64,000 nucleotides of DNA from Siphonodentalium dalli (lineage: Eukaryota; Mollusca; Scaphopoda; Gadilida; Siphonodentaliidae): NCBI GenBank assembly GCA_032622095.1, contig CP136063.1:212305982-212369981 (forward strand). Reading direction: 5' to 3'. The position numbers and the translations under genes are program-made. Of this stretch, positions 1 through 57,276 are shown piece after piece. A model generated the notes under the pieces. That model saw only the letters and a list, made by a program, of their open reading frames with translations. It ran no database searches and was not told where the DNA came from. Positions within the stretch are counted from its first letter, which is position 1. Every line of letters begins with the position of its first letter.

Positions 1-1394
1 ACCACCGTGTGTCACTGTGACTTTGTGTATGTCAATGCGCAATTCTACTCCGCATTCGTAAGTCAATAAATGCAAATGTTTCACCAAAAATCGAAACCTC
101 AGGTGGTAACTAGTTACGTCTATGTATAGTGCCGTATATGCTGATAGGTTTGGCATTCCACAAGTCGCGTGGCGATTCAAATCACAATGAAAATGACCAT
201 CGAATTGTAGTTTGCGTTTCATGAAATTGACTCTGTCTTGTTGATCCTCTAGATATTGCACTGTGGCGAGACTCGTTTATGACTCGTTGTGACGTGTTTT
301 TATGTTATTGAAGCGGAGGCGACGGGAGGCGAGATCAAATTGAGATGGAGAGGCACTGAACATATATACGTGTATTACAATGAACTATATTCCTGTAGAA
401 GGATATTAGACCAAACGACTTACCACTTCTGTGGTTCTCTGTTTGTTTCTAGAACCTGAGAAATAGTCTACATAAAATTCCGGGGGCGATTCTGACCATG
501 TTCACTCGACAGAAACACGATCAGTTACCCACTCCTAAATACATTCTGACATCACGCTGGTCGTCTCCACATAAGAACCATCATCCCTGCATAAACACTC
601 GATCCGCTTGCATTATCAGATATAGATACCGTACATGTACTTAATTGCAGATATCATTTACCATCTATATATACTTAATTGGTTACCGTATACGCCCATC
701 TTAATACTGAACTGACCACTGGCACAATATGATGATTATATTGACAAAAAAGCGGAGATATTCAGAATTTAAACACAAAATAAAGATATTTTTAAAGAGA
801 GTTCTTTTTTATCTTATAAAATAATTTAATGAAGTTATATATAAAAATATATAATAATATTAATAGGATAGACTATAGCATATAGTATAGGTGTTTCATA
901 AAAATGTTAATATTTTGAATTTTTGTCAGTCAGTCAGTCACGTAAGTCATAACTTAATAAACACTAAAATAGCATATAAAGCCATTGATCATAGACATCA
1001 TTGATGACCTCACGCTCACCGGTGTTAATCATTCAATCAATCAATGTTTATTTTTTAGATATTTTGAATTACAATTTGTTTATGATATGGTATATACGTG
1101 TATCTCCAAATTCTAAATGTATCTATGCCTATTAAAAAAAGGAATTGCTGTAAAACCAGCGACACTTTCATATTAATATTCAGTTCTCCGTGTCATATAA
1201 CAAATAAGAATAACAGGTAGATATCATTTGAAGACAGCTTCTCTAACTGAGACCCACTAACTTATACTTCTAAAGCTATAAATATTTTAACAAATGTAAT
1301 TAAATATCATTTCCATGTTACCACCTTCTGATATTAATAGTCACATCAGAGATGATTTGGATAAATCACCAACATGCAAATTGGCCCTATCCCT
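1..1394. other. No gene seen; left flank of segment A
   Basis: A+T-rich sequence without convincing coding potential. An open frame on the minus strand over 1-261 (also 31343-31627) lacks an ATG at its start and has mostly amino-acid-changing differences between copies, so I do not call it. Short runs such as (GTCA)n near 927-941 and a CAATCAATCAAT stretch near 1034 are the only local repeats. The copy is at 31367-32760. Confidence 0.6.
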
Positions 1395-1397
1395 TTA

Positions 1398-3590
1398 TAG
1401 TCTGGTCGATAAAAGGTTTGACCTAGAAAAAATTTGGACTAAGTTGGTTTTTATTCCATTTTGAAGAGGAATATTTCCTCTACAACATATCCAAGATCCG
1501 CTAAGATCCGCTCTGAGAAAACTTTTTTACAGAGATTTTAAAAAATGCTAATTTTTCGACCTTGCGACGTACGTTTTTCTACAATATCCCTCATCGGCGA
1601 CACCAGAACGCATTCATCCTCCATCAGATATACCAGTTTGTGTAAAAGAGTATAGGGGCGAATAGAGTGACAAGGACAGAAAACAATGCAATCGCGGCGA
1701 TGAAATGGCTGTCAAAATGGCCGCAACTACAATCCATGCTACGATGAGTGCAACATATTGGATAACCCCCTATAAGCGAAAATACACATTTGTAATTTAC
1801 AAGAATGTTGTTATATATCTTTAAAGGTACACATATAATTAAAACAGATCTATCTGAATGATTTATCGATCACTGCTACGCACGTTAACCCAATGATTTA
1901 CGTTCGGGTTTTCTTATTAGAATACATCCAACAGTCGGACCAAAAACAGTTATTTTGGGCATGCAACACACGAAGTAATATTTCGCCACACAGTGCGTGG
2001 TAGTTTCCTTTTGGAATGATGATTAATTATTAAATGTAAAGCAGAAATTGAAGAGCCCACCCTATCTGTGTAAATACTAGTTATATTTCCAGAATTTTCA
2101 ACACTCTCCGTGACAATAAACCATACACGTATGTCGTAATGCTGATTATACTGTCAAGAAACACTTATCTCTTCAACAGAATAGTACCCTATCTCACTAG
2201 ATCGAAGAGACTGTACGTCGTACATTTTATTTAGTACTAATTTTCATGGTGCTCCCAACCCGGTTTATTAGTAGACAATTATGTTCAAATTACTTCAATC
2301 GGCACTTTACGACATGAATATGTACCCCGCAATACACACTATTAGTTGTCAGTATCTTGTTGTTTGAAATTATGTTACCATTGCCACCCACTTATACTTG
2401 CGCTAAATATCAGGTCATCAGCGTTTACAGTTATTAGTTCTGCGTTTACCATTCACTCAATGTTGCTATTTATGGTTTTGTATGCAGCAGATATGTGTAA
2501 CATTAGGGAGAATTGGTAAACGCGGCGATGCGGTTGCAGAAAAGGTCGTACGTTTCGCGTATATGTGGCCTTAGTGCATTTAAGTGCACATAATTTCCAG
2601 GTGTAAAGACAGTCTCTGCCATAGAGTATGTAGGCAAATTGGGTTATGTTGAGAATTTATTGAAGAGAGTCTATTGTAATCCTTTGTATTTTGATAAATA
2701 GCGTTCATGGTATACCACCATGTATTTGTGTGATAAAAATGAAATATTCGTGTTTAATCACTTGACCGGAGGCAACTATGACTACTATTTTAAGACACGG
2801 ACAATAGGATCTACACATTTTACCCAGTACCATATGTATAGCTCTCATACTGTTCTATAGTAGTGAATTGTGACAGACCGTGTGTTGTAGATTCAAAAAT
2901 AAATGATTATCGGTCACATTCGTGAGACTGTTTTCATTACATATATTTCTGCTTCTAGAAAAGGTCACACAATGACTACATCCCTAGATCACATTTAACT
3001 GTTTTAATACACATATAGTACACGATTCAAGATAAACAGTACAGATAAAACTGCGTTATTCTTCTATTTCTTGGCGCCCAAAAAGTCCACATTCAATCGT
3101 TGTATGAGACCTGGCTTTCGGTTGCTCTCTCGCGAGATACATTAGAGAGAATTCTTACATACTATTATTAATAGCTCCCCTTATACTCTGAAATCATTCT
3201 TCCTCGTATAATTTGACGGCCTGTTCGTTCTTGTATAACAAGCTATTCTATTTTCCGCAAATTGTAAATTTTATTCGATTTTGTCCATTTTGGCGGCCAT
3301 TTTGGACAGACATTCTACCGAAATGGTTTACGACTAAGGATTGTTTGTGTGGATTTTATTTTATTACTAATTTGGTATTTGTTGGCGCACCTACCACCGA
3401 AATTCAGGATTTTTCTATACCAACTGCCATCATGGACGCCATCTTGTATTACAGAAAATGCTCAAAGCGGATTTTAGCGGATTTTGGATATGTTATAGAG
3501 GATAAATTCCTCTTCAAAATGAAATAGAAACCAACTTAGTCCAAATTTTTTCTAGGTTGACCCTAAAATTTTAGTTTATCGACCAGACTA
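1398..3590. mobile_element. 2.2-kb non-coding element with ~120-bp terminal inverted repeats
   Basis: The left end (1398 to about 1530) and the right end (about 3455 to 3590) are inverted copies that begin TAGTCTGGTCGATAAA. They continue through matching blocks such as TTTGGACTAAGTTGGTTT and TTTTGAAGAGGAAT. The element is flanked by TTA on both sides (1395-1397 and 3591-3593). Alternatively it starts GTCTGG and is flanked by TA. The interior has no long reading frame, only a short open stretch (3213-3527) that runs into the right terminal repeat, so this is a non-autonomous DNA transposon or its remnant. TTA would suit a PIF/Harbinger-type site and TA a Tc1/mariner site. The ends do not decide the superfamily. 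Confidence 0.7.
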
Positions 3591-3593
3591 TTA

Positions 3594-5044
3594 AGTTGAA
3601 CATGATTTATGTCGACAGATGAATTACCGGTAGACTGGAACTTCGAGCTGTGGTAAAAATACTATTCTTTTGAAATTGACCTTTATACTGGAAATGTTTC
3701 ACCCGTGGATACTCGATAAAACATATTTAAGCGGGTTAACATAATTATTCATTTACAATTTTAATAAACTCTTGTCCAAGAAAACGTGCTGATCAATTTC
3801 GAAAGTCCGCAAAAATGCACCAAATTCGTGATACTGTCATTCCTGGTTCGTTGACTTTGGTCAAAAATATTAAATAGCTGGAAATTTCATGCCTGACACA
3901 AAACTACTGCGACATTTTAGACCAATGAAGTTTGAAATTGTTCTCATTGTTTGATTTCCAAAATATATTTTTAGACAAACAGAGGCATATTTTTCTACTT
4001 GTCAAAATTTGCTCTGAAATGGCCATCAGTTGGAATATTACACATTTACAGGTTGGACATTCCGAACATTTGGACATTTTCAGGTACATCTACCAGTTGG
4101 ATAGTTTCAACAAAGGGTGTACATATGGTATATCGTCAACCTAGATAAGTTTGGTCTGGTTCAGATGTGTGTGGGATGCAATTGGAATTTTGTACAGTCT
4201 AGCCACGTGCCTGACCCGAATTGTCAACAATTTGAGATGCAGCCTGGCACAACATCTCTCGAAATTGTTCTCTTAGTATTTATTGTGGTTTACACTTTGT
4301 GGTTTAAAATTTTTAGACCACAAACTCTTAATTTAGGTCCTGTTTTCGACTGATAAGGCCATCAGTGTCTCCGGGTGTTCAAAACTGCTCTTGGACCACA
4401 ACCGCGGTTTTATTTCTACTTTTCTTTTCTGATGGACGAATTCTTTGGAATCGAAGGATAAGCTTAATGCATCTGCGACGCCCAAATATTGGTTGAAATA
4501 ATGTAGTTTTGTCACAATGTATATGGCATCAGTAAAACGTCACGCGAAGACTTAGTGCTACGACAGAAAAGATAGCCTAACAGAGGCAGTCAAAGAAGTA
4601 CATCCACATGATTTTATTACACAGTATACGTGCGCACAGTGTTCAATGAGTTTCAAAACGAGAGGTGCGGTATATCTTCGCGAACAGGCTGTGCACGAAC
4701 TATGACAATTATAACCCTTACACCTGCCTACCCCAAATTATGTCGGACACTCTGACCTATGGGAATCCTGTCGGCTGACACTCGCGTCCACCTAAACAAA
4801 TGTCCGACACTCTGGCCTGGTGGGTCCCCGTTTGGGCGATTTGTTGTTTGTCACCCCTGTGCGGAGAATGTTTTTGCAGACCCCCCCCCCCCCCTCTGAA
4901 AGTGAGAAAATATTCGGTTCTTGGACTAAAAACAGCATTATTTACACTTGATATCGATTGTAAAAATAAACTAGCGGGACATTCCCAAAATCCCTCTAAA
5001 ATGTCCAACTCCCCTTGATTCTGACATGAACGTTTCCAGTTGTT
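3594..5044. repeat. Non-coding; dispersed repeat fragments and a poly-C tract
   Basis: No gene recognised. The stretch at about 3880-4040 resembles 61765-61910: both contain GGAAATTTCATGCCTGA followed by GTTTGA-type and TTTCCAAA-type blocks, so it is a dispersed repeat. A run of about 17 C lies near 4880-4896. The stretch 4614-4665 resembles 21005-21070 (shared CACAGTGTTCAATGAGTTT). The copy in A' spans about 34960-36428. Confidence 0.5.
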
Positions 5045-6184
5045 TTGACCAAAGTAGGGGAGCAAGACCCTTTGCTCTTAGCAAGTGGTCAAATAATTGG
5101 AATAGACTTGTTAAGCTTTATAATATGCTTTATAATAAGCTTCATAATTGTTTACATTTCTCTGACTCATTATTCTGCACATGCGCATTCATGTAAATAT
5201 TAATGAACGTCCGTCCATTTTACACGTGTTCGCGTTGTGTCGTTTCCTATACTTCTGCATCTGTTGATTATCCATTTAAGTCATTTAAGAGATTTCACTC
5301 GAGTTTAGTCCAGTTCTTTACTCCATGTCGTCACATCCTTTTTGTGGATTCTGAAGCTTTGTTTCACTTTTAAGAATTTCACTTTTTTGCCGGTAAGAGT
5401 TATCGTTCTCTGAGAGATTGCACACACAATGTGCGAACGAAACACACTGACACATGTCTACAAGAATTGAAAATCCGGTCTACAGAAGAATTCGAGAAGA
5501 ATACAAGAACCCGGGTCATATGTTAAAGAAAATGGCTGTTTGAGGCACAACAGTATATCAAGTGACGCTTTGTCGTGTTACAATCGGGGTCTAATGCTAG
5601 GATCAAAATATATTTTAGCCCTTTTTATACTAGATAATCATTGGAGCGTATAGTTATTCCGTAGGAAGTGTTCAGATAATAAATTCAAACGACCAGTCTG
5701 ACCATTTCACACCCATTGTTAAAAATAATTCAACCCCTGGGTTATCTATTAGTCTGCGTGTCGTCTGCTGTAATCACATGAACATCCCTCCAAATGAATA
5801 CTGGACCATTCCAATGTAATTTTATAACTGAATGGGAAAATACATTCGCTAAAGAAAGGGTTAATGCGCGAAATACTTGTATTGACACTTCATCTTCAGC
5901 ATCAATCACAAAATAGTGTTCATTATCACACTCCTGGTGAAGTGGTTCTGATAATTTGCTACGATTTTAGTGGGTCCTGCTGAATTGCAATGTTGTTGGT
6001 AGGGCAAACTGATGTTGTTGGGGAAATTTAGCGTTATTTTTCTTTAGTTGTCGTTTTGTGGTGTTTGGCTTATGCGAACGATTTGAGAAAAACCAGTGTT
6101 GCACGAAACAATCACGAACATAAAATATTTTAATCATGGCTTTCCATTTGTTTGCAAAACGACAAGAATAGTCATTTTATAAGT

Positions 6185-6372
6185 TTTTGATTGTTTTATA
6201 AACATAATGGTTTTTTATGAGGTTTTGTATATTTTATAAACATAATGTGTTTTAATGTTTTATAACCATGTATGTATTATAAACATAATGGTTTTTTTTA
6301 TGAGGTTTGGAATGTATTATAAACATAATGGGTTTTTCTGAGGTTTGGAATGTATTATAAACATAATTGTTT
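6185..6372. repeat. Short A+T-rich tandem repeat (~40-bp unit)
   Basis: Four to five imperfect units built on TATTATAAACATAATGG plus a TGAGGTTTGGAATG-like spacer. Counterparts lie at about 37580-37755 (A'), 15440-15625 (inverted, arm 2), 46785-46965 and 48905-49095. Unit number and spacer length differ between copies, as expected for slippage. No coding role: frames through it are accidental. Confidence 0.8.
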
Positions 6373-7148
6373 TTTCTCCCTTCGTTCAGGTTAGCCAAAA
6401 GGCCGTTAAAATGACAACATAAAAAATAACGGTACATTTCCTTAACAACATTAGTTTGCCCTACCAGCATCATATTAATTCAACAGGACAGACCATCACC
6501 ATAACAAATTGGCAGGATCATTTATACAGACTGAATCAGTATATTTTGGTATGAACAAAGTTCGTTCAGTTTAGCTCACTTCTGGGCAATAAAGTTCAAA
6601 CAGCTGGAAAATTACTATGACTTCGGTTAGGATATTCGAGTAAGTAGGGTCTATATATGTTTTTTACTCTCGAGTAAATAAGGCCGTTGGTGTATCTCTA
6701 AACTTCAATAATCTCCTCGCGAGTTCTATGTTTTTATTCCGGCCCACATTTGCACATGAAATTACATAAGAACGTGAAGAATATTCCAAAATTATTCTCA
6801 CTGGTACCAAATTACTTTAAAACATTTGAGGTAAAAAGGAGTCAAATCCGTTTACTATTTATCTGGTTTCTTGTGGACATTTGTCGGGGTTCATCTTGAT
6901 TTCGTTCCGTGTTTCTCCAGAAAACTAGTATCCAACTTGTTCCGCATTTGTATAAAAAAAAAGCCATAACCATGTTTTCACGAAAACCAAGTGAACGCAA
7001 GAACGAACAAATTGACCTGAAGAAACCTGATTTATATTAACATCTGATACTGGTTTCGTGGGTATTTCTTTGATTATTGTAGACACGGTTCGTGTTTCTT
7101 TGGGTGCTATTCGTCAAGTGTCTGAGTCGTCGTTGTACATCACACTGC

Positions 7149-8066
7149 CTAGCATCCTTGAATATATATAATTAGCAAAATGATGAACAATCTGACTGGA
7201 ATGTACGCAACAACTCCATACATGGTCCATATTATGTTAACACACGTGTCAGCTAGAACTGGAAAAATAAGAAACACGCATACGTTATCTGCCATATCTA
7301 CAATAATCTGCATTGCTTGTATTATTCCCCCCAAAAGCGCGATAACGGCGTATAGTAGACCACAAAGTATGCCATTAGAAGATCTCACATCTCTGCTAGT
7401 CTGCACCGACTTGATGTTGTACATCCCTCGACCTGACCACAAAGCAGAGCAATAACCTATTTCTAAGCATGTGGTTTCCGGGTGTATTCCTTCAACAAGG
7501 TATGTCACGATCTTATGAGTTATCTTATATATGGCTCTGATGCAAGCTCCACGGTGTGACACCAGGCTTCTGCATACCTTATCCAGATTCAGTCTCATCT
7601 TCATTGTGAATAACGAGGTCCCGAGTTCGTCCACCATTAGCTGTATGTCCGACTCACATTGTTCGCAGTCTGTCGCTTGATTCCGACTGCCAGACATGGG
7701 CAGTACCGCGCTACTCTGTCTCATTTGACATTTTCCGATTTCCACACAGGCAGTATCTGGATCAAATGTGTTTTCAATTTCTGTCACGAGTTCGGCGATG
7801 ACGTCATCAACTCCTTCGTGACAAAGCCTTTTTTCTCTAGTGCCCGAGCGTCCATCACACATGGCGATTATGGCCTCAGACAGAGCGGCCTCCGTCGCCT
7901 CGGTTTTAAATTGTTCGCTTACATGACCCATAACCGTACGACACATCGTGCATTCTTGGGGTTCCTCTTGTCTCCACTGATGAGTGGCTTCCACCGGATT
8001 CCATACCCCCAGACTGAATATCACCACGAACGACGTGAACAAATGTTTAGCTGTCATGATGTTCAT
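7149..8066 (-). CDS. Secreted double saposin-B-domain protein with hydrophobic C-terminus
   Basis: The 305-codon single-exon frame encodes a signal peptide (about residues 4-27, hydrophobic FTSFVVIFSLG then VEA). Two saposin-B domains follow, each with the six-cysteine pattern: C39, C42, C70, C82, C107, C113 and C134, C137, C165, C175, C200, C206. Both end in a PxTxCxEIGxC motif typical of the family. Saposin-B domains are disulfide-bonded helical bundles that bind or perturb lipid membranes; they occur in prosaposin, surfactant protein B and amoebapore-like effectors. Residues about 233-303 are strongly hydrophobic in roughly three segments, which is unusual for the family and could anchor the protein or be processed. 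A TATA box lies 31 bases upstream of the first ATG, so the second ATG (residue 4, base 8057) is the likelier start; the paralogue has lost the first ATG. A possible AATAAA is at 6733-6738. Function is inferred from the domain only. Confidence 0.85.
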   Translation of the reverse strand: MNIMTAKHLFTSFVVIFSLGVWNPVEATHQWRQEEPQECTMCRTVMGHVSEQFKTEATEAALSEAIIAMCDGRSGTREKRLCHEGVDDVIAELVTEIENTFDPDTACVEIGKCQMRQSSAVLPMSGSRNQATDCEQCESDIQLMVDELGTSLFTMKMRLNLDKVCRSLVSHRGACIRAIYKITHKIVTYLVEGIHPETTCLEIGYCSALWSGRGMYNIKSVQTSRDVRSSNGILCGLLYAVIALLGGIIQAMQIIVDMADNVCVFLIFPVLADTCVNIIWTMYGVVAYIPVRLFIILLIIYIQGC

Positions 8067-8097
8067 GTAGTACTGTCGATATTATCATTTCCTCTTC

Positions 8098-8103
8098 TTT
8101 ATA
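8098..8103 (-). promoter_or_regulatory. TATA box of saposin-B gene (A)
   Basis: TATAAA on the minus strand, followed by GAAGAGG. It is about 41 bases upstream of the second in-frame ATG. The same element is conserved in the paralogue's promoter (13685-13690) within a shared GCTCACAAGTAGTG context. Confidence 0.65.
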
Positions 8104-8215
8104 ACCGAGCACTACTTGTGAGCAGCACTCAGGTGATGTGCAGATTGTCGTGATTTGATTTTTATTAGCGGGATTAAGTTAACTCCATATACGCAGTTTC
8201 ACAAGACCACTTGAA

Positions 8216-8764
8216 TTCAATATTGTGTTGTGAACGGAAACTGCAATGCCCGATTAGTCGTCTCCAGTTTAAAGTCCGCCATAAGAGACTAATGGAAGCG
8301 GTCTCGTACGTAAACAAGCATCTTGCTGTCCCAATATCCTAGCTGTTTACGTACGAGCAGACTTGGACTATTGAAAACACTTTCAATTCACCGACAAATG
8401 ATCGGTAACCAAGGACACACCATATACACTCTAGGCAGATTCGCCCTGGGGACAATCGACTCACCAGAATGGTAACCCTACTGAATTCCTGAATTTACAT
8501 CTTTATCGAGAACTCCAAGCAACAAGTAACTAAGGCGTTGTTAGGACTTGTACAATCAGAATCGAGGAAAATGAAAGAGAAAATTAGAGGTGCATTTATA
8601 AGTTCTTACGTGTCACCAGCCTTTTGTAAAGTTTAAAAAAAATATCTGATAAATTTATTTGGCAAAAAAGCAATACATGTTTGATAACACTTACAGTGTA
8701 ATCAAAGTGTTTTAATCTTCATTACAATATAAATGTAGAAAATTACTGTCATGGTTGTTTCCAG
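8216..8764. other. No gene seen
   Basis: Start of the palindrome spacer. Contains a short inverted pair, GTACGTAAACA at about 8306 and TGTTTACGTACGAG at about 8345. In A' (39622-40170) a nearby base change shifts one arm. Otherwise non-repetitive A+T-rich DNA. Confidence 0.5.
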
Positions 8765-8862
8765 ATGCTTCTAATGAACTAATCAAAATTGTGGTGGTGA
8801 TGAAAGAAGAACAAATACAGTTCGCAGCTGAGCTTAATGCTACGAAGTCGAGGTCTGAAATG
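8765..8862 (+). CDS. Candidate orphan exon, amphipathic helix-like
   Basis: A 98-base stretch is bounded by a good acceptor (GGTTGTTTCCAG) and a donor (ATG/GTGAGAAC). It is open in one frame, giving about 32 residues rich in charged and aliphatic residues (KIVVVMKEEQ, FAAELNATKS). The A' copy at 40171-40268 keeps both splice signals and the frame but has three replacement changes and no silent ones, so constraint is doubtful. I do not recognise a family and cannot find partner exons nearby. It could be a real exon of a gene with others elsewhere, a stranded duplicate, or chance. Confidence 0.3.
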
Positions 8863-8913
8863 GTGAGAACTTACTCCATATGCACCTGAATTTTATTTCT
8901 TAATTAAAGGAAA

Positions 8914-9227
8914 GGATGGCCTTCGTGCGGGTATGCTGTTAAAATAGTCACACCCGATAAAACTGCCGTAAACAGAAAGTATCTTAAAATATAGACATAT
9001 ATCGTTCTTTTACCAATCATAAATATCGCGTAAATAGTATGTTATTGTCAATTTTTTGTCCTTTGTTTACATAACACAGCATACGACCTAAACATTAACA
9101 TACTATATACGCGATATTTATGATTGATATAAGAAGAAAATATGTCTATATTTTAATATACTCTCTGTTTATGACGGTTTTAACGGATGTGCAATTTTAG
9201 CACCTATAACCGCAAGGAAAGCCATCC
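8914..9227. mobile_element. MITE-like foldback element (~314 bp)
   Basis: The ends are inverted copies starting GGATGGC(C/T)TT. Inner arms of about 85 bases pair across a short loop: the left contains AATCATAAATATCGCGTAAA and the right its reverse complement-like ATACGCGATATTTATGATT. There is no coding capacity. A related, more decayed relic is at about 13110-13215 and 44465-44560 (shared TCTGTCTATATTTTA and CTTTCTGATTGAACGG). Confidence 0.7.
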
Positions 9228-9240
9228 GTACTTTGAATTA

Positions 9241-9520
9241 AATTGATGTGAAACACTCTGGTATGGTGATCAAATAGAAATGGAGAATAATTTTGATCAA
9301 AGTAGTTATTTTACAAATACTATATCCAAATTGACAACACTCGCCGTCATTCGTATATAATGGAGAATAATTTTGATCAAAGTAGTTATTTTACAACTAC
9401 TATATCCAAATTGACAACACACGCCGTCATTCGTATATATTAATTAATTGCAGTGACTGTCGATGGCGAAATAGTTTTCATTAGTTTATCACCGATAGTT
9501 GCGATCATTAATGCATGACA
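9241..9520 (+). repeat. Dispersed repeat with an internal 80-bp tandem duplication
   Basis: Two adjacent 80-base units, 9281-9360 and 9361-9440, begin TGGAGAATAATTTTGATC and differ at only a few bases. The whole stretch also matches, in reverse orientation and with more divergence, about 22225-22440 and 51985-52195, where only one unit is present. So this is a dispersed family member in which one block has been tandemly doubled. The A' copy has the doubled units at 40687-40766 and 40767-40846. Confidence 0.8.
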
Positions 9521-9660
9521 GTAGAGGTCCTTTAATACATACCAGAAATGGGCCATTAACAAATACCGATAAAGGGCCAATAGTGTCAGCCATCAATGGG
9601 CCATTAATGTTCACCAGTAAAGTGCCAACAGTTATTTTCTGGCAGCCTTTAATTTCTCAT
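9521..9660 (+). repeat. Dispersed repeat (copy at 29080-29222)
   Basis: Matches 29080-29222 with roughly one change every 12-15 bases. Shared landmarks are AATACATACCAGAAATGGG, CAATGGGCCATTAATGT and TTTTCTGGCAGCCTTTAATT. The A' copy is at about 40920-41065. It is non-coding. Confidence 0.75.
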
Positions 9661-9693
9661 CTACAGTAATGCCCTAAGTAATCGACTCCTTAA

Positions 9694-9846
9694 ACACTGC
9701 AGAATTATGGGTAACTTTTCAGGATTTAGTCGGAAATATGACTTGTTGCCATTCATCGCAAAGCTCTCCCCGAGAGCTTTCCGATGAATGGCAACAAGCC
9801 ATATTTACGACTAAATCCTGAAAAGTTACCCATAATTCTGCTGTGT
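9694..9846. mobile_element. Near-perfect foldback hairpin (~153 bp)
   Basis: Arms of about 70 bases (9694-9766 and 9772-9846) are reverse complements apart from a few mismatches and leave a loop of only a few bases (CCCG). The ends read ACACTGCAGAATT and AATTCTGCTGTGT. TTAA is present on both sides (9690-9693, 9847-9850), which would suit a TTAA-specific transposon. However, the left flank CAGTAATGC...ATCGACTCC is also shared with the copy at 20290, so the repeat extends beyond TTAA and the target-site reading is weak. Confidence 0.7.
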
Positions 9847-10039
9847 TTAATAGTCCGTGGGCCAAACAAGATATTTTTCGAGTTGGCTGCACCCTCCCCC
9901 TCCCTCCAACAAAGGTTTCTGCATATCAAATTAAAGACCATCATATGTCGCATCAGATTTTGCTTGTTGCCAGTTTCAGAAAGTGTCCCAAAATAGATTT
10001 TTCAGGGAAGACAACTCTTACCCCTAAAATAAAATGAAT

Positions 10040-13020: not shown

Positions 13021-13023
13021 GGC

Positions 13024-13690: not shown

Positions 13691-13730
13691 GGAGAGCACA
13701 TAATTATATCGACAGTGCTACGTGAACGTT

Positions 13731-14636: not shown

Positions 14637-14639
14637 TGT

Positions 14640-44385: not shown

Positions 44386-44440
44386 CACCCACCCACCCCG
44401 GCATACGTGCCGGAATTTTTGTTCACCCCCCTCCCCCTGA
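44386..44440 (-). repeat. C-rich/hairpin repeat in A'
   Basis: Counterpart of 13024-13085, with CCGGCATACGTGCCGG at 44398-44413. Its inverted copy in C is the site of a deletion junction (50637-50645). Confidence 0.75.
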
Positions 44441-47277: not shown

Positions 47278-47984
47278 TTATATATGCTTTATTCTCTGAT
47301 CCAGAATACATAAATGGATATTGAGAAATATAAATGGAGATAGTATACAAAAAATAAATAGGGTGAAACATGGAATATGCATGTATGTACATAATATACA
47401 TAGACTCTCCGGTTGACATGCAGCCTGATCAATATTACTGGGTATAAATACTTAGTGACTTTTGTAGAGCAAATCCGTGCTCATATCAGCAGCATTTTCA
47501 TTTTCTACCACAACCACTACTACCACTCTCATTTTCTCAATCACCACCGTCATCAACATAGTCACCATAATCATCATCATCTTTGCCACCATCATATGTA
47601 CTTCACACCACCATCATCATCATTATCATGGACATCATCATCACCATCATCATCAACATCATCATCATCATCATCACATATACTCGACATCACCATCACA
47701 CCACCATCATCATCATTATCCTCATCAGCATCATCATCATCATCGTGATGATCACTCTCAGCATCGTCAGTGACCATATTTAAATCATCATCGTGATCAT
47801 CATCACCATTTTTCATCATCATTATCGTCATCTCCATCTCCGTAGTCATCGTCGTGAGATCCATCGTCACCGGCATCGCCATCACCGTAGTCGTATACAT
47901 CATAATCATCCTAGTCATCATCAACGACAGCAACAAAAACAACAACAACAACAGAAACAATAAAGCAATAACAACAATGTCACG
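47278..47984. repeat. Spacer with (ATC)n/(CAC)n microsatellite
   Basis: From about 47498 to 47930 the plus strand is an imperfect ATC/ACC triplet array, then AAC-rich to about 47962. It produces histidine-, isoleucine- or aspartate-rich frames on both strands with no coding meaning. On the minus strand it directly follows the LINE coding end, so it is likely the LINE's 3' microsatellite tail or an expansion seeded by it. Confidence 0.85.
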
Positions 47985-48705
47985 TTAAGAAAACCCCTGG
48001 TTAATAATACGGATAAAAGCACACAACCTTCGCAAGGAAGCTACATCCGTCATGTTCAGAATATCATTCATGATTATTGTATTTGGTCGGTCCAGACATT
48101 CTCTTGGCAAATACCGTGTACGTTGTTCAGTAAATTTCTTGCATTCAAACAAATAATGAAATTCGTCACCGACCCTCCCATCATCGCAAATGGTACACAT
48201 GTCGTCGCATCCAATGTGGCATGACCACCGGCTGGTTTCAATTGGTAATCTATGATTGCTTGTGCGAAATTTACACAATGTGGTTCTATTTCTGTCGTCC
48301 AATGTATTCAAATATTCTTCAAAGTTAATGTCATGCTTGAATATGCGATATATTTTACCTCTACTTGATAGGTCTAATTCGTGTTGCCAACTATCTCTGT
48401 ATTTGCTAATCAGACTACATTTCACATACTCTAAGATTGTTTCTGGAAACGACAGGTGATCAGTTTGTAGGAGGTGCCCCTGACCACAATTTATCAGAAT
48501 AAGTCGGATCTTTCTTATCCACAAAAAGCTAGGCAGAGTATTTTTATGAAATGTTCTAGCTAAGTTGTATAGGTTTTTACAGTATCTGTTTCCATTCATG
48601 TTTATTATTTTAGCCCAATACTTCACCATTCTGAAATGGATTGTTACGTCAATCGGTGATCTTCCGCTTTCACCATAAATCATGAAGTTTGGTGTTGAAG
48701 GTTTA
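47985..48705 (-). pseudogene. LINE 3' coding fragment (5'-truncated)
   Basis: About 240 codons of a LINE ORF2 C-terminal part. The diagnostic string is KFRTSNHRLPIETSRW followed by a zinc-knuckle-like CxxC...H...C (MCTICDD...EFHYLFECKKF). Related sequences are very common in non-LTR elements of marine invertebrates. The frame stays open to its stop at 47985, implying recent insertion. The upstream 20 or so codons of the open frame (48706-48767) belong to segment C, not to the LINE. The endonuclease and reverse transcriptase are missing. The fragment lies exactly between the two arms of the A'/C palindrome. Confidence 0.85.
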
Positions 48706-51670
48706 AGTGGGTCCTGCTGATGATGTTGGTATGGCAAACTGATGTTGTTGGGAAATTTTAGCGTCACTTATTCTTTATTTGTCGTTTTGTGGTGTTTGGC
48801 TTAAACGAACGATTTGAGAAAAAAGTGTTGCACAAAACAGTCACGAACAGAGTATGTTAAAATATTGTAATCATGGCTTTTCATGTGTTTGCAAAAGAAT
48901 AGTAATTTTACGAGTTTTTAATGTTTTATAAATATAATGGGTTTCAAATTTTCAATGTTTTATAAACATAATGGGTTTTAATGTTTTATAAACATAATGG
49001 GTTTTTAATGTTTTTTTTATAAACATAATGGGTTTTAATGTTTTATAAACATAATAGGTTTTTATGAGGTTTTGAATGTTATATAAATATAATGTGTTTA
49101 TCTCCATTCGTTCAGGTTAGCCAAAAGGCCGTTAAAATGACAACATAAAAAATAACGGTACATTTCCTTAACAACATTAGTTTTCCCTACCAGCATCATA
49201 CCAATCCAGCAGTACCAAACAGTACCATAACAAATCAGCAAGACCATTTAACCAGGGTGTATCAGTATATTTTGATATGAACAAAGTTCGTTCAGTTTAG
49301 CTCACTTCTGTGCGACAGTGCGATAAATTTCAAACAGCTGGAAAATTACTATAACTCCGGTTAGGTTATTCGAGTAGGGTCTGTATAGGTTTTTTTCTCT
49401 CGAGGAAATAGGGAAGTTGCTGTATTTCTAAACTTCTATAATCTCTTCGCGAGTTATTCCGACCCAAATGCATTTATCAGTGTACATGTTCTTACATAAG
49501 AACATGAATAATATTCCTTATACATATTCTCCATGGTACCAAATTACGTAAACTTAATTTTTGAAGGTCAATGAGACAATTCTGTTTAATATATATCTGG
49601 TTCCTTGTGGACAAATTGTCGGGGTTCATCTTCGTTTCGTTCCGCGTTCCTCCAGAAAACTAGTATCCAACTTGTTCCGAACCGGTGTCCCCAAAAAAAA
49701 GCCATAATCATGTCTTCGCGAAAACCAAGCGAACACAAGAATGAACACATTGTCCAGAAGAAACCTGATTTATATTAACATCTGATACTAGTTTCTTGGG
49801 TATTTCTTTGATTCTTGTAGACACGGTTCGTGTTTCTTTGTGTGCTATTCGTCAAGTGCGTTTTGTTCGTCGTTCTTACAGTGTGAGTCATCGTTGTCGT
49901 TTTACATCAGCACAATCCTATCAATGAACATACTACCCTGGAGACCACTGTGTGTATGGCGTTATCAGCAACATCATCAACCAACCAAATTATGTTAACA
50001 CACAAGTCAGATAGAAATGGAATAATAAGAAACGCACACACGTTGTCTACGACTCATGCAATGATTGACGTCACGGTGCATACAGTTACTCCCACGAGAA
50101 TCGAGACTCCGGATTTGCATAGGCCACACAGAAAAAAATTAGAAGATCCCACATCTCTGTTAGTCTGCACCGGCTTGATGTTGTACATCCCTCGACCTGG
50201 CCGCACAGCAGAGCATAAACCTATTCCTAAGCAGGTGGATTCCGGGTTTATTCCTTCTCAAAGGAATGTTACGATCTGAGGAGTTATCTTATAGATAGCT
50301 CTGACGCAAGCTCCACGGTGTGACCCCAGTCCTCTGCATACGTTATCCAGTCTTCGATCTAAATAAGAAGGTCCCGAGTTCAGCCACCATTAGCTGTATG
50401 TCCGACTCACATTGTTCGCAGTCTGTCGCTTGATTCTGACTGCCATACATGCGCAGGACCGCGCTACTCGGGCCCATTTGACATTTTCCGATTTCCACGC
50501 AGGCCGTATCTGGATCAAATGTGTTCTCAATTTCTGTCACGAGTTCGGCGATGACGTCATCGACTCCTTCGTGACAGAGCCTCTTTTCTTTAGTGCTCGA
50601 GCGTCCATCACACATGGCGATTGTGGCTTCAGACAGAGGGGGGTGAACAAACTTTCCGGCACGTATGCCGGGGTGGGTGGGTGGTCAAAGCCACCAGCAA
50701 GCAATTTTTTCCGCAACTAAAAAAAAAACAATTCCTGCTTTTTTGTTTAGTGTTTTGGCAATGAGTTGGGCTTCAAAACCACTTTGAATGGGAGAAATAA
50801 TGTAATTCTAACTGGTAAACAGTTATCGTGTTGTATTTTGTTGCAAATTTTGAAATCCAAGATGGCCACTGGCAGCCATGTTTTTTTGGCCGAATGACCT
50901 CAAAATGACTCATTCCTATTTACATGTCCATGTTAACATCCATGATAAATAGTATGCACAGAAATTCATATACAGCTGTTTACAGTGAATTTCACCCCGC
51001 CTAGTGTTGTTATCGTATGCCATAAACATGTATCTCGTCCACTATAGATAGGGCTATGGTTATATATGCCACACACCCACATTGCATAGGGTTATAAGGA
51101 CATGGCATACTAGAATGGGTTGAGTTATTGTGTCAAGTAATTGCCTGATAGTTTGCACGAAAATAGTGTTGCTTAAGAAGTCTGTATTTTTGTTATTCTT
51201 GTTTAACAACAGGAGAACATTAATCGCAATTCCTGGACTTGAATACATGTCGGCTTGTCACATAAAGCACATACAAATTCTTGGCAGGATGTAAGTAGGT
51301 CATCATCGATATTAATAGATTGTTGCATAATATGATACATTGCAATTCATTTCAGAATAAGTCATTATGCTACCTTTTTTTCTGCAACCCGAGAATACAA
51401 TCCTGGTATTCAGGTAATGCTTCACACGTCATGTGTCCATGACTCAGTTCCAGACAATGCCTAATATTTATCAGGTGGTGATAACAAAGACTCCTTGACA
51501 GGTTTCTATTTTTTTTTCGCGAATGGTTGAGTGCATAATCTACATGTGTTTCAAAAACACTGAATTATTATGTTTGCCATGGGGTGGAATGTTACGTGAT
51601 ATGGTCCCCGAATGGTGACATTCGCTTACAGTTAGTTCCTGCTCTCGTGCTAGTATGTTACCACGAGGAA
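48706..51670 (-). repeat. Segment C: inverted, internally deleted copy of A' 43396-47170
   Basis: 48706-50636 is the reverse complement of about 45265-47170, and 50645-51670 of about 43396-44425. Some 0.83 kb (saposin promoter, signal peptide and first codons) is missing between them. With A' it forms a palindrome with arms of about 3 to 3.8 kb around a 1.5-kb centre. At about 51670 it joins B'. Confidence 0.92.
49907..50636 (-). pseudogene. Saposin-B pseudogene, 5'-truncated third copy (in C)
   Basis: Inverted copy of the pseudogene in A'. It starts within the first saposin-B domain: promoter, signal peptide and first two cysteines are missing. The sequence is fused at a G run (50637-50645) to a copy of the C-rich/hairpin repeat. 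It carries the shared interdomain frameshift. Several changes resemble A rather than A' (for example N rather than K in the IEN motif). Confidence 0.8.
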
Positions 51671-52838
51671 GCACTCCGAAACACACTCTGAAACGTGCTT
51701 TGCATCATGAAATTTAATAAGAAAATCTATACGTTTACTACCTCTACATCCAGGTAGTGGTGGTATTCACACATTCACTAGATGTTTACTCACCATCAAT
51801 GATCATGGAGCTCCGTAGCCACTTAAAGATATATTATGTACTTATTCGGGTGCGTGAAACTAGTAAGTTAGTATTCAGGTACTATGCCAACTGGAGGAAT
51901 ATAGCATTCTATTAACATCACCGAAAATTTAAAACAAATCCACATTACAACTCCATAGAAAACATCGTCTGATCTGCGCGCAATTGTAAATATTTACTTC
52001 TAGATTCGGGACGCATCTATCTGCAATAAACTAACGAAAACGATTTCGCCATCGAGAGTCACTGTATTTAATTGATATATAAGAATGGCGGTGTTTGTTG
52101 TCAATTTGGATATAATATTTGTAAAAATTACTACTTTGAGCAAGATTATTCTCCATTTCTATTTGATCTCCCTACCGGAGTGTTTCACATCACTTTAAAT
52201 TCTAAGAAATTATAAAATGTCCACTCCTAAACAGATGAAGAATATTGAAGGAAATCAAGCACAATTTTACTGTATGTGCTCCAGTTGACTTGTAGAATAT
52301 AAAATCCATCAAAGAAACTTGGAAATATTTTGACACTGGGAGCTACTGTTTGGAAATTGTATAATTTTAGAGGTACAATTTTGTTTAATTGGTGACAAAA
52401 TTTATTTAAGAACAATTGATGGATGGATGATATTGCAATGAAATGACTATTTAATGTATTTTACTCAGACAATTTTCCAACTTTGCATCAGCTACTGACA
52501 GCTAGTGCGTATAATGCTTAATATAGAGTCATGGGTTCAGAAAGCGCCCATACTCAACCATTTGCATGCCATAAAATACAGAATTTGATTCCAGGGAGGG
52601 TAATATGGCATATTTTTCATCAACAACGACTTATGAGTATGCAAAATGGAATATGAACACATAATTTTGAAAAGAATTCATTGTGGTTGGTCAGTCGGTG
52701 AGAAAAAGTGCTCTTCTTGATTGTGAAATGACCCTTCTACACACTACACACGACAGTGACAAACATGTGAAGCCTGGTGAACTGGTGACTAAGTGAGTCC
52801 TTTAACTTGGTCAGTGTATTGTTCATAGTCCACTATTG

Positions 52839-53157
52839 TTAACGAATCATCAATGTCGTGTGCATCATGGAAATATATTTCCTATCTCGGTACCAAAACA
52901 TTCCCGTCTCCCCTCCGTTCGTATTATTGAAATACTCTCCGTTCAAATTAGACCACGAACAACAGCCAAACCACCAACTTGCATGCCGATATATTGTACA
53001 GATTCCCATGCCACACCCTGATTCGCTGTGTTCATTATCAGGTGTGCTGAACTGTTGCCCGTTGTGATAATTCAATGAGTCACCGGCATTGCCACTATAG
53101 CCACTGATGTAGAGGGTGTACGTCGTATCTTCTCCTGCTATCCTGAAACTGGAATAC
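52839..53157 (-). CDS. FReD protein, last exon (C-terminal half of fibrinogen-related domain)
   Basis: Starts after a strong acceptor (TTGGTTTTTCAG) and runs to TAA at 52839-52841. It encodes about 105 residues with the family's C-terminal hallmarks: YSSFRIAGED, Y.L...GYSGNAGDSL, FSTPDNE, a Cys pair 13 residues apart around ASWWFGCC, SNLNGEYF, and a final GMFWYRD...MIR. The usual calcium-site acidic run DxD is altered (PDNEHSES), so calcium binding is uncertain. It joins in phase to 55796-56108 (AG + G = Arg) across an intron of 2638 bases that contains the B' repeats. FReD proteins (ficolin, tenascin and invertebrate FREP families) are secreted lectin-like recognition molecules binding acetylated sugars or microbes. 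Confidence 0.9.
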
Positions 53158-54520
53158 CTGAAAAACCAAGATGATTGAGATTAACAAAGTAACGCTATTC
53201 GTTGCCAAGCTAAGTACGGACGACCGATCGACATTTAGACCGCCGTCTAGCAGTGACCGTATCCTCAATCCGTCCATCGAACAAGTCTGGATATAGTGCG
53301 TCTGACATTTGCAAATGAGATCACAAGAATGTGCATTTAGTGATGCTACCCCACACAGCGGGCTTGTGTCACCAAATGTACCATCTGGTGACCTCGTTCT
53401 GCTTATGCCTCATCTTCTGTGAAGTATCGATAGTCAACAATTAATATTATGTTAGTTGATTTTTTTCACCTTCAGTTCAGTTTCTTTATCTCATAATTTG
53501 CAGAACAAGAAGATAAAATGCATAATCGAGGCGACTAAGGGGTGAACATCACCAACTTTAACTAGAACACTTCAATCTGATCCTATGTCTCCCATAGCAT
53601 TTGATGGCAACGCAAAATGATGTTCCCAGAGGGTGAATTTGGTGAGCTGAGAGAGAAATCCAATATTTCTGGCAATGCCTTTGTTACAATAGTGACGATT
53701 AACCAAGGTGTATCAGACATTTTAGTATTCAATGTATAGAAGGCAGAATAGAACTAATGTTATTCAACAACCACAACTTGTTAGCGATTTCGTGGCACGC
53801 TGAGGCAATATCTGCCATATTCAATATTTGGCGGCCATTTTGGCATCCATTTTGAGCCAATGTAACAATTTTGATGCCAATAAGTAAGAATATTCATGGG
53901 TAATGGTATTTCTCACGTTCAGTACACAATTCTGCTCATTTCTTGTTGAAATGTGACTAGAATCCCAATTGTGATTATTTTGTTTGTTAAATTTTATACC
54001 GCGTTCTGTAAAATCATTTTTTTTAGGGATCGGAAGGGGCCAGTATCTAGAGAATGGCATAGTTCATTGCTCCAATGATGAATTAACATACAAAATGCAA
54101 AATAGAATTGCAATTCTCAAACAGTACCAAACAGCAGCAACTGATATATATGATATTAGTGAAAAACGTCATATTTTCCACTTCCGGTGTCCGTTTTGGC
54201 GGCAATTTTGGACTGAGAGGTCCAATTACGCCATATAAAGGTGGTATTATACCGTATTGGATTTTCAACAAAACTCACAAATACGTAATATATAAGTAAT
54301 AGCTATCCGTAATAATTATCTGTCGTCGTTTGTTATGTCGTTTTGGACAAATTATTTTTGTGTCATATTTTAATCAACGGTTTGATAACGCGTGGGCACG
54401 CATGTTCTCGCTAACACGGTGTGGATATATTCAACATATTTCGCATAACAAACTACTGCTGATACGAATTACGAATAACTTATAGTAGTCGTGACGTGTT
54501 CGTCACAGTCCAAACCCTTT

Positions 54521-54760
54521 TCGCAGAATTGACTCTACTATACAATCGTGTCAGTTTGTGAGAAAATAGGGCAATTTTAAGACAAAGTTCTTGCCGCTCA
54601 CAGTAAGGTGATATAGTTATCTTAGCATGATTATTTTATACTTAATTCAGGGGGGTCGGAAAAAAATTTCAGGCACGTATGCTGATTTGTCCTTTCGACC
54701 CTTGTTGGGACCCCCGCGTCCAAATATTTTTCCCTTTTCGGCAGTTTTTTCCTATCATTT
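54521..54760. repeat. ~240-bp block present in B' only
   Basis: Absent from B, where CCAAAACC joins directly to TTTTTTGGACACCCACC (about 25200). It includes a degenerate C-rich/hairpin copy (AGGCACGTATGCTGA near 54672). The junction is in T/C-rich sequence with no obvious target duplication. Confidence 0.7.
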
Positions 54761-55278
54761 TTGGACACCCACCCTGTGAGTTGCGGAAACAAATGTGTGT
54801 TGGAACCATCGACCACCCACCCACCCGGCATACGTGCCCGGAAACCCCTTGTTATTCTAAGGTGTTTTAAGCCAAACTCATTGCAAAAACAGTCAAAACA
54901 TTTTTTTTTTAATTGTGACAAAAATTGTTTGTTGGTTACATCGACCACCCACCCACCCCGGCATACGAGCCCGGAACCCCCCCCCCCCTCGTTTAATTCT
55001 GTTTTTATCAAGTCACAGTCAGTTGTAGTCATTGATTGCATGCAAGGTCGCATGCATGTTCTTAGTTTCTCTACATTTATCGTAATCGTAACTACGCATA
55101 TGGCAAAACGACGTTTGTTAAAAAGAACACAGATTTGAGTGACGTACAGTGTCATGTTCCAGGCCATGCGCACGGGTGTAGATATCAAACAATATGTGAT
55201 CCTCCGTAGGATAGGGTATCATATAATATGTGATCCTCGTCTCAGGAGTCACTCGTGGCTCAATGAAGGCAGGAGCAT

Positions 55279-55344
55279 ATATCAAAATGAGAGGATATGG
55301 TGATCCCATGAAAAGAGGATCACCATATCCTCTCATTTTGATAT
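55279..55344. repeat. 28-bp-arm palindrome (B')
   Basis: Same palindrome as 25730-25785. Here the outer bases ATATC also pair, lengthening the perfect arms to 28 bases, while the loop has changed slightly (CATGAAAAGA). Confidence 0.85.
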
Positions 55345-55795
55345 GCGATCCTAAAATAAGAAAATATTTTTATTAACTAAATAACGGAGATATTTGAAGA
55401 AGTGTTTTTGACGAAATAACGGAAATATTTGAAGAAGTGTTTTAAAGGGCGTACCCCAAACCTCCCCCAAAGCCCACCCACCCTATAGAAGAATTTGACT
55501 TATATTTCACCAGAGTTGATCTATTGTGGTGTAATTTCTCATACAAATCGCCGTTATTTAGCAAAGGGACATTATTTATAGAGTTATTATACCATTCATA
55601 TAAAATCACTAAAAACAGATAAAGATCGCATATCAAAACCTATGTTATCCTCCGTAGAATCAGATATCGTTTATAGTCCACACTCGTGCGCATTAGTTGC
55701 ATGTTCGTAATACCTATTAGTAGTAGTTCATTATACGAATTGTGTCAATTATTGTATAAATGTGTATTGCAATATGTTTACTAAATCAGTATTAC

Positions 55796-56108
55796 CTTGC
55801 ATACCAATCAGCTCCGCCCGGCTCTCGCATTTCTACATAGAGTTCCGAGCTTCTGCCATCTGTCAGTCGGTGCATGTTCTGCAGCCCTAACCAGTAACTG
55901 CCACCAGGTGAAACATCACCGAAGCCGTTAACATATTCATCCCAATTCCGGTAAAAGTCGACCAATCCGTTTCTTCTTTGCTGAAACACCGTCCAACCTC
56001 CACCGAGTGTCGTCATGTCGCACGTGACATTTACTTGAGTCAAACCGTCGGGGCTGATTTTGTATACGCCATCTGTCGTCATACCCGCGTTGTACCATGA
56101 TAGACAGT
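55796..56108 (-). CDS. FReD protein, exon for N-terminal half of fibrinogen-related domain
   Basis: A 313-base exon bounded by acceptor GTGTTTTTGCAG and donor CAAG/GTAATA. It encodes CLSWYN...DGVYKISPDG, then VNVTCDMTTLGGGWTVFQQR, then NGLVDFYRNWDEYVNGFGD, then GGSYWLGLQNMHRLTDG, ending DWYA. These are textbook N-terminal FReD motifs, and together with 52839-53157 they make a full domain of about 210 residues. Both halves are open and the splice phase agrees, so the gene looks functional. No counterpart exists in the first half of the window, where the minisatellite follows B directly. No signal peptide is seen; the 5' end is unknown. Confidence 0.9.
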
Positions 56109-56284
56109 CTGCAAAAACACGACAAATTAAAGTTGCCATGTTTTGACACCATAAAACCACAAGTTTTCTCGGTCCACAACAACTTGGGATATCGGTTAAT
56201 TGGGTTGATGCTGTTTGTGGCCGAGAGCAACCGGATATGTATTTGGCGGGAAACGTCATGTGATATTACGGCGCCAAACTTACA

Positions 56285-56491
56285 CGTGTATACATATCTG
56301 CCAACGTCTGGGGCAACTTGTAAATAATAGTCGGTACAGATAAGGCAAGATAACTCTATTCTGTTTAATGTTCCTGTTGTGCTCATCCACACATTACTGG
56401 CACCATGATAAACGATACACGCATGTTGATTTTCCGTTATGTTCCAACACGACATGCGAATGCGAGTACAAGAAGCCAACATTGGATTCAA
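56285..56491 (-). CDS. Candidate upstream exon of the FReD gene
   Basis: An open stretch ends at a near-consensus donor (ACACGT/GTAAGT at 56283-56278). It leaves one base that combines with AC of the next exon to give Tyr directly before the CLSWYN of the FReD exon, across a 176-base intron. The encoded stretch is cysteine-rich (SCTRIRMSCWNITE, HACIVYHGA, LSCLICTDYYLQV) with one N-glycosylation site (NIT). I do not recognise the domain; an immunoglobulin-like or PAN/apple-like fold cannot be shown. The 5' boundary is uncertain: the only AG nearby is GGTGCCAG at about 56400, otherwise this may be a first exon. Confidence 0.4.
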
Positions 56492-56518
56492 TCAAATTAA
56501 AATAATCACATGTCTGCA

Positions 56519-57276
56519 AATCGCTGTCTGCACGGCCCTGATCGGTCATTCGGTTAACAAAATCGCTGTCTGCACAGCCCTGATCGGTCATTCGGTTAAC
56601 AGAATCGCTGTCTGCACAGTCCTGATCGGTCATTCGGTTAACAGAATCGCTGTCTTCACAGTCCTGATCGGTCATTCGGTTAACAGAATCGCTGTCTGCA
56701 CAGTCCTGATCGGTCATTCGGTTAACAGAATCGCTGTCTGCACAGTCCTGATCTGTCATTCGGTTAACAGAATCGCTGTCTGCACAGCCCTGATCGGTCA
56801 TTCGGTTAACATAATCGCTGTCTGCACAGCCCTGATCGGTCATTCGGTTAACGGAATCGCTGTCTGAACAGCCCTGATCGGTCATTCGGTAAACAGAATC
56901 GCTGTCTGAACAGCCCTGATCGGTCATTCGGTTAACAGAATCGCTGTCTGCACAGCCCTGATCGGTCATTCGGTTAACAGAATCGCTGTCTGCACAGCCC
57001 TGATCGGTCATTCGGTTAACAGAATCGCTGTCTGCACAGCCCTGATCGGTCATTCGGTTAACAGAATAGCTGTCTGCACAGCCCTGATCGGTCATTCGGT
57101 TAACAGAATCGCTGTCTGCACAGCCCTGATCGGTCATTCGGTTAACAGAATCGCTGTCTGCACAGCCCTGATCGGTCATTCGGTTAACAGAATCGCTGTC
57201 TGCACAGCCCTGATCGGTCATTCGGTTAACAGAATCGCTGCCTGCACAGTCCTGATCGGTCATTCGGTTAACAGAA
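56519..57276. repeat. 42-bp minisatellite, ~18 copies
   Basis: Same unit as 25883-27490. On the minus strand it is continuously open and runs without a stop into the sequence next to the candidate FReD exon. However, the frame there ends at 56394 and does not match the exon frame, and no ATG precedes the array in that frame. Variants CAGTCCTGATC cluster in units near both ends of the array and CTGAACAGCCC in two adjacent units. Confidence 0.95.

Follow-up and report, generated by a model that had tools for sequence, protein, structure and literature searches.

Does the stretch of 64,000 bases analysed here (the window) hold a locus that was duplicated in tandem, or are two haplotypes of one locus laid end to end in it? 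The self-comparison shows two consecutive copies, about one percent apart and internally rearranged, of a stretch at least 27 thousand bases long, and the main self-match (27,393 bits) is far above chance. The sequence-only reading had described the order A, B, minisatellite followed by A', C, B', minisatellite in the same orientation, and the self-match bears this out, both series being collinear and in one orientation in the assembled sequence (Table 1). The start-to-start offset from copy 1 to copy 2 is 31,366 bp, and the far edge of the 42-bp minisatellite is the terminus of both copies. However, positions 1–27490 do not, as had been supposed, make up a unit with natural limits on both sides, since the homology reaches the first base of the window; copy 1 is therefore truncated by the window edge and the left end of the unit lies outside. 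None of the 64,000 bases is an N. Judged from the sequence, this locus with saposin-like and FReD genes is probably a genuine, recent segmental duplication, its copies lying head to tail on one chromosome. The earlier view that such a pattern is equally expected from duplication and from haplotypes is too even: the sequence leans to duplication, without deciding, because there is no gap, a 3.4-kb array of a 24-bp unit (about 141 copies) in the window was assembled through, and the inverted block C appears about as old as the split between A and A'. Given that array, the 0.8- and 1.6-kb minisatellites would also be within the assembly's reach.

Table 1. Coordinates of the repeated blocks, genes and mobile or repetitive elements in the window
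Feature	Position	Strand	Remarks
Block A, copy 1 (left end cut by window edge)	1–15937	+	self-match to 31367–47277
Older inverted repeat, left arm	5042–8223	+	pieces 80–90% identical to 13573–16930
S1, saposin-like gene, copy 1	7152–8081	-	open frame, 310 codons stop to stop; 305 from first ATG
Older inverted repeat, right arm	13573–16930	-	self-match
S2, saposin-like pseudogene, copy 1	13704–14633	+	inverted relative to S1
A-to-B interval, copy 1 only	15938–21911		5,974 bp; remainder of inverted-repeat arm, then stretch with reverse-transcriptase fragment
Reverse-transcriptase fragment, copy 1 only	19458–19904	-	RVT_1, E 3.4e-16
Block B, copy 1	21912–25884	+	self-match
FReD exon region, C-terminal, copy 1	23154–23450	-	Fibrinogen_C, E 1.7e-14; frame shifted near end
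TTAA element, copy 1 only	23455–23863		409 bp; 14-bp perfect terminal inverted repeats; TTAA at 23451–23454 and 23864–23867
42-bp minisatellite, copy 1	25883–27491	+	1,609 bp, 38.3 units
Interval from copy 1 array to A'	27492–31366		no match to 57277–64000
Block A', copy 2	31367–47277	+	self-match to 1–15937
S1 counterpart, copy 2	38558–39487	-	open frame
S2 pseudogene, copy 2	45041–45971	+	from sequence comparison
Stretch in copy 2 only	47278–48705		1,428 bp; CAT-rich tract 47612–47832
Block C, copy 2	48706–51672	-	inverted copy of 12033–15829, about 0.8 kb missing
Block B', copy 2	51672–55437	+	self-match; about 0.24 kb extra relative to copy 1 near 54522–54757
FReD exon region, C-terminal, copy 2	52842–53180	-	Fibrinogen_C, E 1.8e-17; open to profile position 219/221
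Stretch in copy 2 only, with N-terminal FReD exon	55438–56518		1,081 bp
FReD exon region, N-terminal, copy 2 only	55795–56265	-	Fibrinogen_C, E 1.1e-29
42-bp minisatellite, copy 2	56519–57276	+	758 bp, 18 units

Low divergence combined with large structural differences had been claimed for the two copies. The divergence has to be given in two parts, since A and A' differ by 145 substitutions over 15,815 aligned bases (0.92%) with 19 indels, and the three pieces of B and B' by 46/1514, 26/1341 and 21/677 substitutions (1.9–3.1%); the structural differences (spacers, transposon and array length) are as described. The inequality between A and B (145/15,815 versus 93/3,532, Fisher p 3.5e-14) counts against a single duplication of identical copies, as such an event does not predict it, and favours copies founded as two different alleles, or later partial gene conversion. 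Between A and A' there are 61 transitions and 84 transversions, a ratio below expectation for an animal; the presumptive assignment to an animal rests on the gene types. The A'-to-B' interval of copy 2 is 4,394 bp long (47278–51671), and its first part, the copy 2-only stretch before C, has no match elsewhere in the window.

Block C is not unrelated DNA but a partial inverted copy of A (12033–15829 minus about 0.8 kb), which shares one base with B' at their join. Against A' it shows differences at 14/1926 and 17/1041 columns, a distance similar to that between A and A', and it is about equidistant from both. Over 2,967 columns the tree of A, A' and C is a star, with 16, 12 and 18 private differences, respectively, and one more column that differs three ways; the ratio T(A',C)/T(root) is 0.97 (95% 0.68–1.30). 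Thus, C is not younger than the A/A' split and is dated to about the same time, although the star tree could instead stem from gene conversion.

Among the 243 stop-to-stop frames (at least 60 residues), 20 were scanned against Pfam. Six of the first ten gave a match at E 0.01 or better, with two below the cut-offs (SapB_2 in S1, and BAF1_ABF1), and none of the second ten did; the BAF1_ABF1 match at 47988–48767 was taken as chance. The Rfam and tRNA scans of the window returned nothing. The SapB_2 match in S1 (E 0.0053) scores 17.3 bits, short of the cut-off of 21. Nevertheless, S1 has two six-cysteine modules (39, 42, 70, 82, 107, 113 and 134, 137, 165, 175, 200, 206, counted from the first ATG), the spacing of which we take to be of the saposin B type, and of its nine matches among PDB sequences (E up to 1), eight are to NK-lysin or saposins, at E 0.029–0.66. 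Its structure model has a mean pLDDT of 38, too low for use. In the viral_contigs collection, one stretch fitted the pattern of the S1 protein and none was confirmed. The two S1 copies differ in six codons, four with replacement and two silent, too few for selection to be read from them. The two main lesions of S2, a deletion of 11 bases and an in-frame stop codon, are common to A, A' and C.

Pfam recognized the Fibrinogen_C domain of the FReD gene in three exon regions, with E-values from 1.7e-14 to 1.1e-29. FReD exons had been described as present in one half and absent in the other, which holds for the N-terminal exon, lying in the 1,081-bp stretch of copy 2, but not for the C-terminal exon, which is in both copies and, by reading, differs by two substitutions besides a frameshift. 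The gene is broken in copy 1, where the N-terminal exon is absent and the frame is shifted, and both exons of copy 2 are open. Decay of a spare copy is the simple account of this state, and the broken copy could alternatively be a null allele.

The transposon noted in one half only was confirmed: the copy 2 counterpart of the 409-bp element is an empty site with a single TTAA (53181–53184). With its duplicated TTAA target and its terminal inverted repeats, it conforms to a piggyBac-type non-autonomous element, and its TTAA and CCC ends are presumably signs of that superfamily. The difference in minisatellite length (1,609 versus 758 bp) also stands. Variant mapping covered the units in phase, namely 33 of array 1 from 26092 and 17 of array 2 from 56534, the others being omitted. 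These comprise 24 and 9 variant kinds, respectively; one type is common to both and no run of variant units is shared, so the minisatellites give no record of a shared past. Units in the first part of array 1 lie at a mean distance of 1.19 from the nearest array-2 unit, and those in the second part at 1.29, values that do not distinguish a hybrid array. Neither the 42-bp unit nor the transposon end has an exact match in viral_contigs, and the 24-bp array has none in genome_contigs. Beyond the arrays, comparison of 27492–31366 with 57277–64000 gave no match at word size 7 and E 1e-3, whether or not low-complexity sequence was filtered. This is compatible with a tandem repeat, in which the two are not corresponding places; 27492–31366 would then be the start of the copy 2 unit, with its partner just left of the window. 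It also restricts any misjoin of haplotypes to the vicinity of the array edge.

If the duplication is real, its join would lie at or in the 42-bp minisatellite, through unequal exchange between arrays on either side of the unit. At about the time of the A/A' split copy 2 would have gained the fold-back, synthesis proceeding as far as the end of A', crossing about 1.4 kb of other DNA, turning back over 12033–15829 on the opposite strand, and rejoining B. The decay of FReD in copy 1 would be placed after the duplication.

Duplication and haplotypes, the alternatives named before, are the right main pair, although a heterozygous true duplication and crossing-over between homologues had been omitted from it. 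That two haplotypes of one locus were falsely joined end to end, via the 42-bp arrays or gap filling (a heterotype duplication), is a real but lesser possibility. The level of divergence together with the large presence/absence differences would fit a very heterozygous animal, and the strongly uneven divergence of A and B would fit differing coalescence times. Haplotig redundancy has been reported for an oyster reference assembly (PMC8917759), and wrong gap filling sometimes links false duplicates with no N between them (PMC9516828), so that the missing assembly gap between the copies, with the longer 24-bp array assembled through, tells against such a join without deciding it. The mismatch of the flanks is compatible with a misjoin located precisely at the edge of the array; however, the downstream sequence of copy 1, if retained past the array, should resemble 57277 onward, and none does, and a misjoin at about that edge is simplest with a second 42-bp array upstream of the unit. 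Moreover, if C had arisen later on the A' haplotype, it should be nearer to A' than A is, which is not so. Half read depth is not specific to haplotypes either, since a true duplication on one chromosome gives half depth too, and a tandem duplication specific to one allele has been reported in a single contig with haploid depth (PMC9516828).

Within true duplication, and counted in the weight given to it, is the unlikely sub-case that unequal crossing-over took place between homologues, the copies being two different alleles from the start (a heterogeneous duplication). It would account together for the haplotype-like uneven divergence, the presence or absence of the transposon and the gapless head-to-tail order, and duplications of this kind are known for ace-1 and rdl in insects (PMC5137868; PMC6121789), but gene conversion after an ordinary duplication yields much the same uneven divergence, and the 42-bp array expected to the left of the unit would fall beyond the window. 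Quite unlikely, in our estimate, is the fuller scenario in which two alleles were locked in cis via crossing-over between misaligned minisatellites and an inverted third piece was added by template switching at about the same time, as a permanent 'heterozygosity'. Redundancy from sequencing errors (a homotype false duplication) or a chimeric fold-back read is extremely improbable. The inverted C beside A' has the outline of a fold-back product, but the copies differ mostly by substitutions (145 versus 19 indels), and an excess of substitutions over indels is not the pattern of raw long-read error. Also against it are the large structural differences, among them one that has a clean TTAA target duplication. 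As a read fold-back, C was rejected, as it differs from A' at the columns given above, has private changes of its own and is without the 0.8 kb.

The consequences differ among these readings. If the copies are alleles, genes are erroneously counted twice here and the 'variation' amounts to heterozygosity; if they are paralogues, there has been a recent expansion of the locus, which has an extra inverted piece and in which the decay of one FReD copy has already begun. For a heterogeneous duplication, the question of paralogues or alleles would be answered by both. Alleles fixed in cis would be an addition to the short list of such duplications, for which, as of 2016, evidence was described as scarce and the examples as few, all insecticide targets (PMC5137868); later ones were searched for in a limited fashion.

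Comparison with known systems gives partial likenesses. The 203-kb ace-1 amplicon of Anopheles gambiae, an example of tandem segmental duplication through unequal exchange between repeats, resembles the present locus in its head-to-tail copies, a repeated element at a breakpoint and copies that can be different alleles; unlike it, the present copies differ by several large rearrangements and the left junction lies beyond the window (PMC5137868). False heterotype duplications likewise have adjacent collinear copies with haplotype-like divergence, but the gap between copies is absent here, which still leaves room for a gap-filled join (PMC9516828; PMC2864568). The duplication-inverted triplication-duplication, formed by template switching between inverted repeats, is like our locus in having three copies of a segment, one of them inverted, beside an older inverted repeat, and the single base shared at the C/B' join is a further likeness; however, the order here is direct-direct-inverted rather than direct-inverted-direct, so that no inverted copy stands between direct ones, and our case additionally has 1.4 kb of other DNA as well as an internal loss (PMC4352052; PMC10766186). 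By analogy, the large structural differences in otherwise near-identical sequence may be compared with the presence/absence variation in mussel, where a mean heterozygosity of 1.73% and much hemizygous sequence are given (PMC7653742), and in lancelets (PMC12373286), although there the variation is between chromosomes and here both copies are in one sequence.

The dominant match of the window against itself pairs block A with block A', and three shorter collinear matches pair block B with B', after which each copy ends in a 42-bp minisatellite. The two collinear halves described in the sequence-only reading thus stand in outline, but the bounds given there for copy 1 do not, since the A/A' match starts at window base 1 and the window edge truncates copy 1. 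Nothing inside the window marks the left end of the repeat unit, and the start-to-start offset between the copies is 31,366 bp.

Coordinates of the matching parts of the two copies
Feature	Copy 1	Copy 2	Basis or position
Block A match	1-15937	31367-47277	window self-comparison
Block B, piece 1	21912-23455	51672-53185	window self-comparison
Block B, piece 2	23864-25204	53181-54521	window self-comparison
Block B, piece 3	25202-25884	54758-55437	window self-comparison
42-bp minisatellite	25883-27491		directly after block B
42-bp minisatellite		56519-57276	closes copy 2, after B' matches

Divergence is strongly unequal (Fisher p 3.5e-14), with 145 substitutions in 15,815 aligned bases plus 19 indels between A and A', and 93 in 3,532 between B and B' (46/1514, 26/1341 and 21/677 by piece). 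Within A, differences cluster beyond expectation over all 32 windows of 500 bp (chi-square p 4e-6); the excess stems mostly from two of these, 9501-10000 and 13001-13500, and without them p is 0.12, both having been picked post hoc with their counts already seen. Transversions outnumber transitions between A and A' (84 to 61), while two B pieces show the opposite (18 and 14 transitions to 8 and 7 transversions) and the third has 22 to 24.

The spacer between A and B in copy 1 (5,974 bp) contains a continued arm of an older inverted repeat and a fragment of reverse transcriptase (RVT_1, E 3.4e-16); that in copy 2 is 1,428 bp without a match elsewhere in the window, followed by block C. This stretch (47278-48705), found only in copy 2, includes a tract rich in CAT and, on the minus strand, an open frame (47988-48767) with no convincing Pfam match. 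Moreover, a 409-bp element (23455-23863) lies inside B of copy 1, bounded by perfect 14-bp terminal inverted repeats and flanked on each side by TTAA; at this place copy 2 has an empty site with a single TTAA. The element carries internal hairpins and sits ~27 bases before the presumed 3' splice site, placed by eye, of the C-terminal exon of the Fibrinogen_C-domain gene (FReD). Copy 2 is longer by about 0.24 kb near 54522-54757. The minisatellite has 38 units in copy 1 and 18 in copy 2; among 33 and 17 in-phase units, respectively, variant units fall into 24 and 9 kinds with one in common, and no identical run exceeds two consensus units. In addition, two short dispersed elements occur, one at 9659-9775, 20285-20401 and 41065-41172 (92–93% alike) and the other at 9508-9663 and again at 29076-29225 (91%).

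Block C (48706-51672) repeats 12033-15829 in inverted orientation but lacks about 0.8 kb of it. It stops 108 bp before the end of A' (15829 vs 15937 in A coordinates) and shares one base with B' at their join, 51672. Private differences number 6, 7 and 6 for A, A' and C in 1,926 columns, and 10, 5 and 12 in 1,041 columns; in one more column all three differ. In the first segment, polarised by the older inverted-repeat arm, A and C share 2 sites, A' and C 0, and A and A' 0, with 2 sites unpolarisable. The three form a star tree, with A' and C splitting at 0.97 of the depth of the root (95% range 0.68-1.30 from Poisson resampling, a clock being assumed). A well-later origin of C on the A' haplotype would make A' and C the closest pair; since they are not, either C formed at roughly the time of the A/A' split, or gene conversion held all three equidistant. 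A single rearrangement episode would fit the age of C without being proved by it. A fold-back read artefact was also considered as the source of C, and the distances among A, A' and C speak against it.

The older inverted duplication (5042-8223 and 13573-16930; pieces 80–90% identical) is mostly present in both halves, with the gene S1 in one arm and the pseudogene S2 in the other. S1 (7152-8081, minus strand) has an open frame in each copy; the two differ at 6 codons, 4 of which are replacements. Two six-cysteine modules, a SapB_2 score of 17.3 bits (short of the 21-bit cut-off) and weak matches to NK-lysin and saposin chains (E 0.029-0.66, eight of the nine sequences listed) weakly suggest a saposin-like product; the structure model (mean pLDDT 38) is unusable. 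A, A' and C all carry the two main lesions of S2, which was therefore broken before the copies parted. The domain assignment of the predicted FReD gene is well supported. Its N-terminal exon lies within 1,081 bp (55438-56518) of copy 2 and is absent from copy 1, its C-terminal exon is in both copies, frame-shifted near its end in copy 1, and the two domain exons are open in copy 2 only. Upstream exons were not identified, so the putative copy-2 gene cannot be called complete.

In our judgement a true tandem duplication, the allelic kind included, is the probable explanation. The window contains no N although it spans a 3.4-kb array of 24-bp units, which counts for a real duplication, and the apparent age of block C and the decay of one FReD copy would count the same way. 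This array (58337-61725, about 141 units), outside the duplicated part, has long open frames on both strands. That two haplotypes were joined end to end in assembly is possible though doubtful. Both the amount of divergence and the presence/absence differences would fit a very heterozygous invertebrate; the available text of PMC7653742 gives a mean heterozygosity of 1.73% and much hemizygous DNA in mussel, that of PMC8917759 reports haplotig redundancy in an oyster reference, and the inequality between A and B also favours haplotypes. Against them, with or without the filter, 27492-31366 gave no match to 57277 onward (word size 7, E 1e-3). Where a tandem repeat has the form L-U-U-R, copy 1 runs on into the first part of copy 2's unit and copy 2 into R, so the two flanks need no likeness, whereas haplotypes retaining any true copy-1 downstream DNA should show it; the misjoin is thus confined to about the array edge. 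This would be simplest if another 42-bp array sits just upstream of the unit, and the topology is then that of a real unequal crossover, so the flank mismatch only narrows the haplotype reading. Half depth, earlier proposed as the mark of haplotypes, is also expected from a duplication carried on one chromosome only. Other artefacts and the unforeseen seem improbable.

Within true duplication, perhaps a minor share falls, as we judge it, to the allelic kind, in which misaligned homologues cross over and the copies are two alleles from the outset. Under it, a gapless head-to-tail array should show divergence that is uneven and haplotype-like, together with clean transposon presence/absence, and this reading reconciles the evidence for duplication with that for haplotypes, but ordinary duplication with gene conversion predicts much the same pattern. 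The inverted block resembles template-switch products of human loci, but lacks the direct-inverted-direct order that these have in the available text of PMC4352052 and PMC10766186. Tandem duplication itself belongs to a known kind, and the heterogeneous ace-1 duplications, known from the available text of PMC5137868 and PMC6121789, may by analogy provide a model for two alleles joined in cis.
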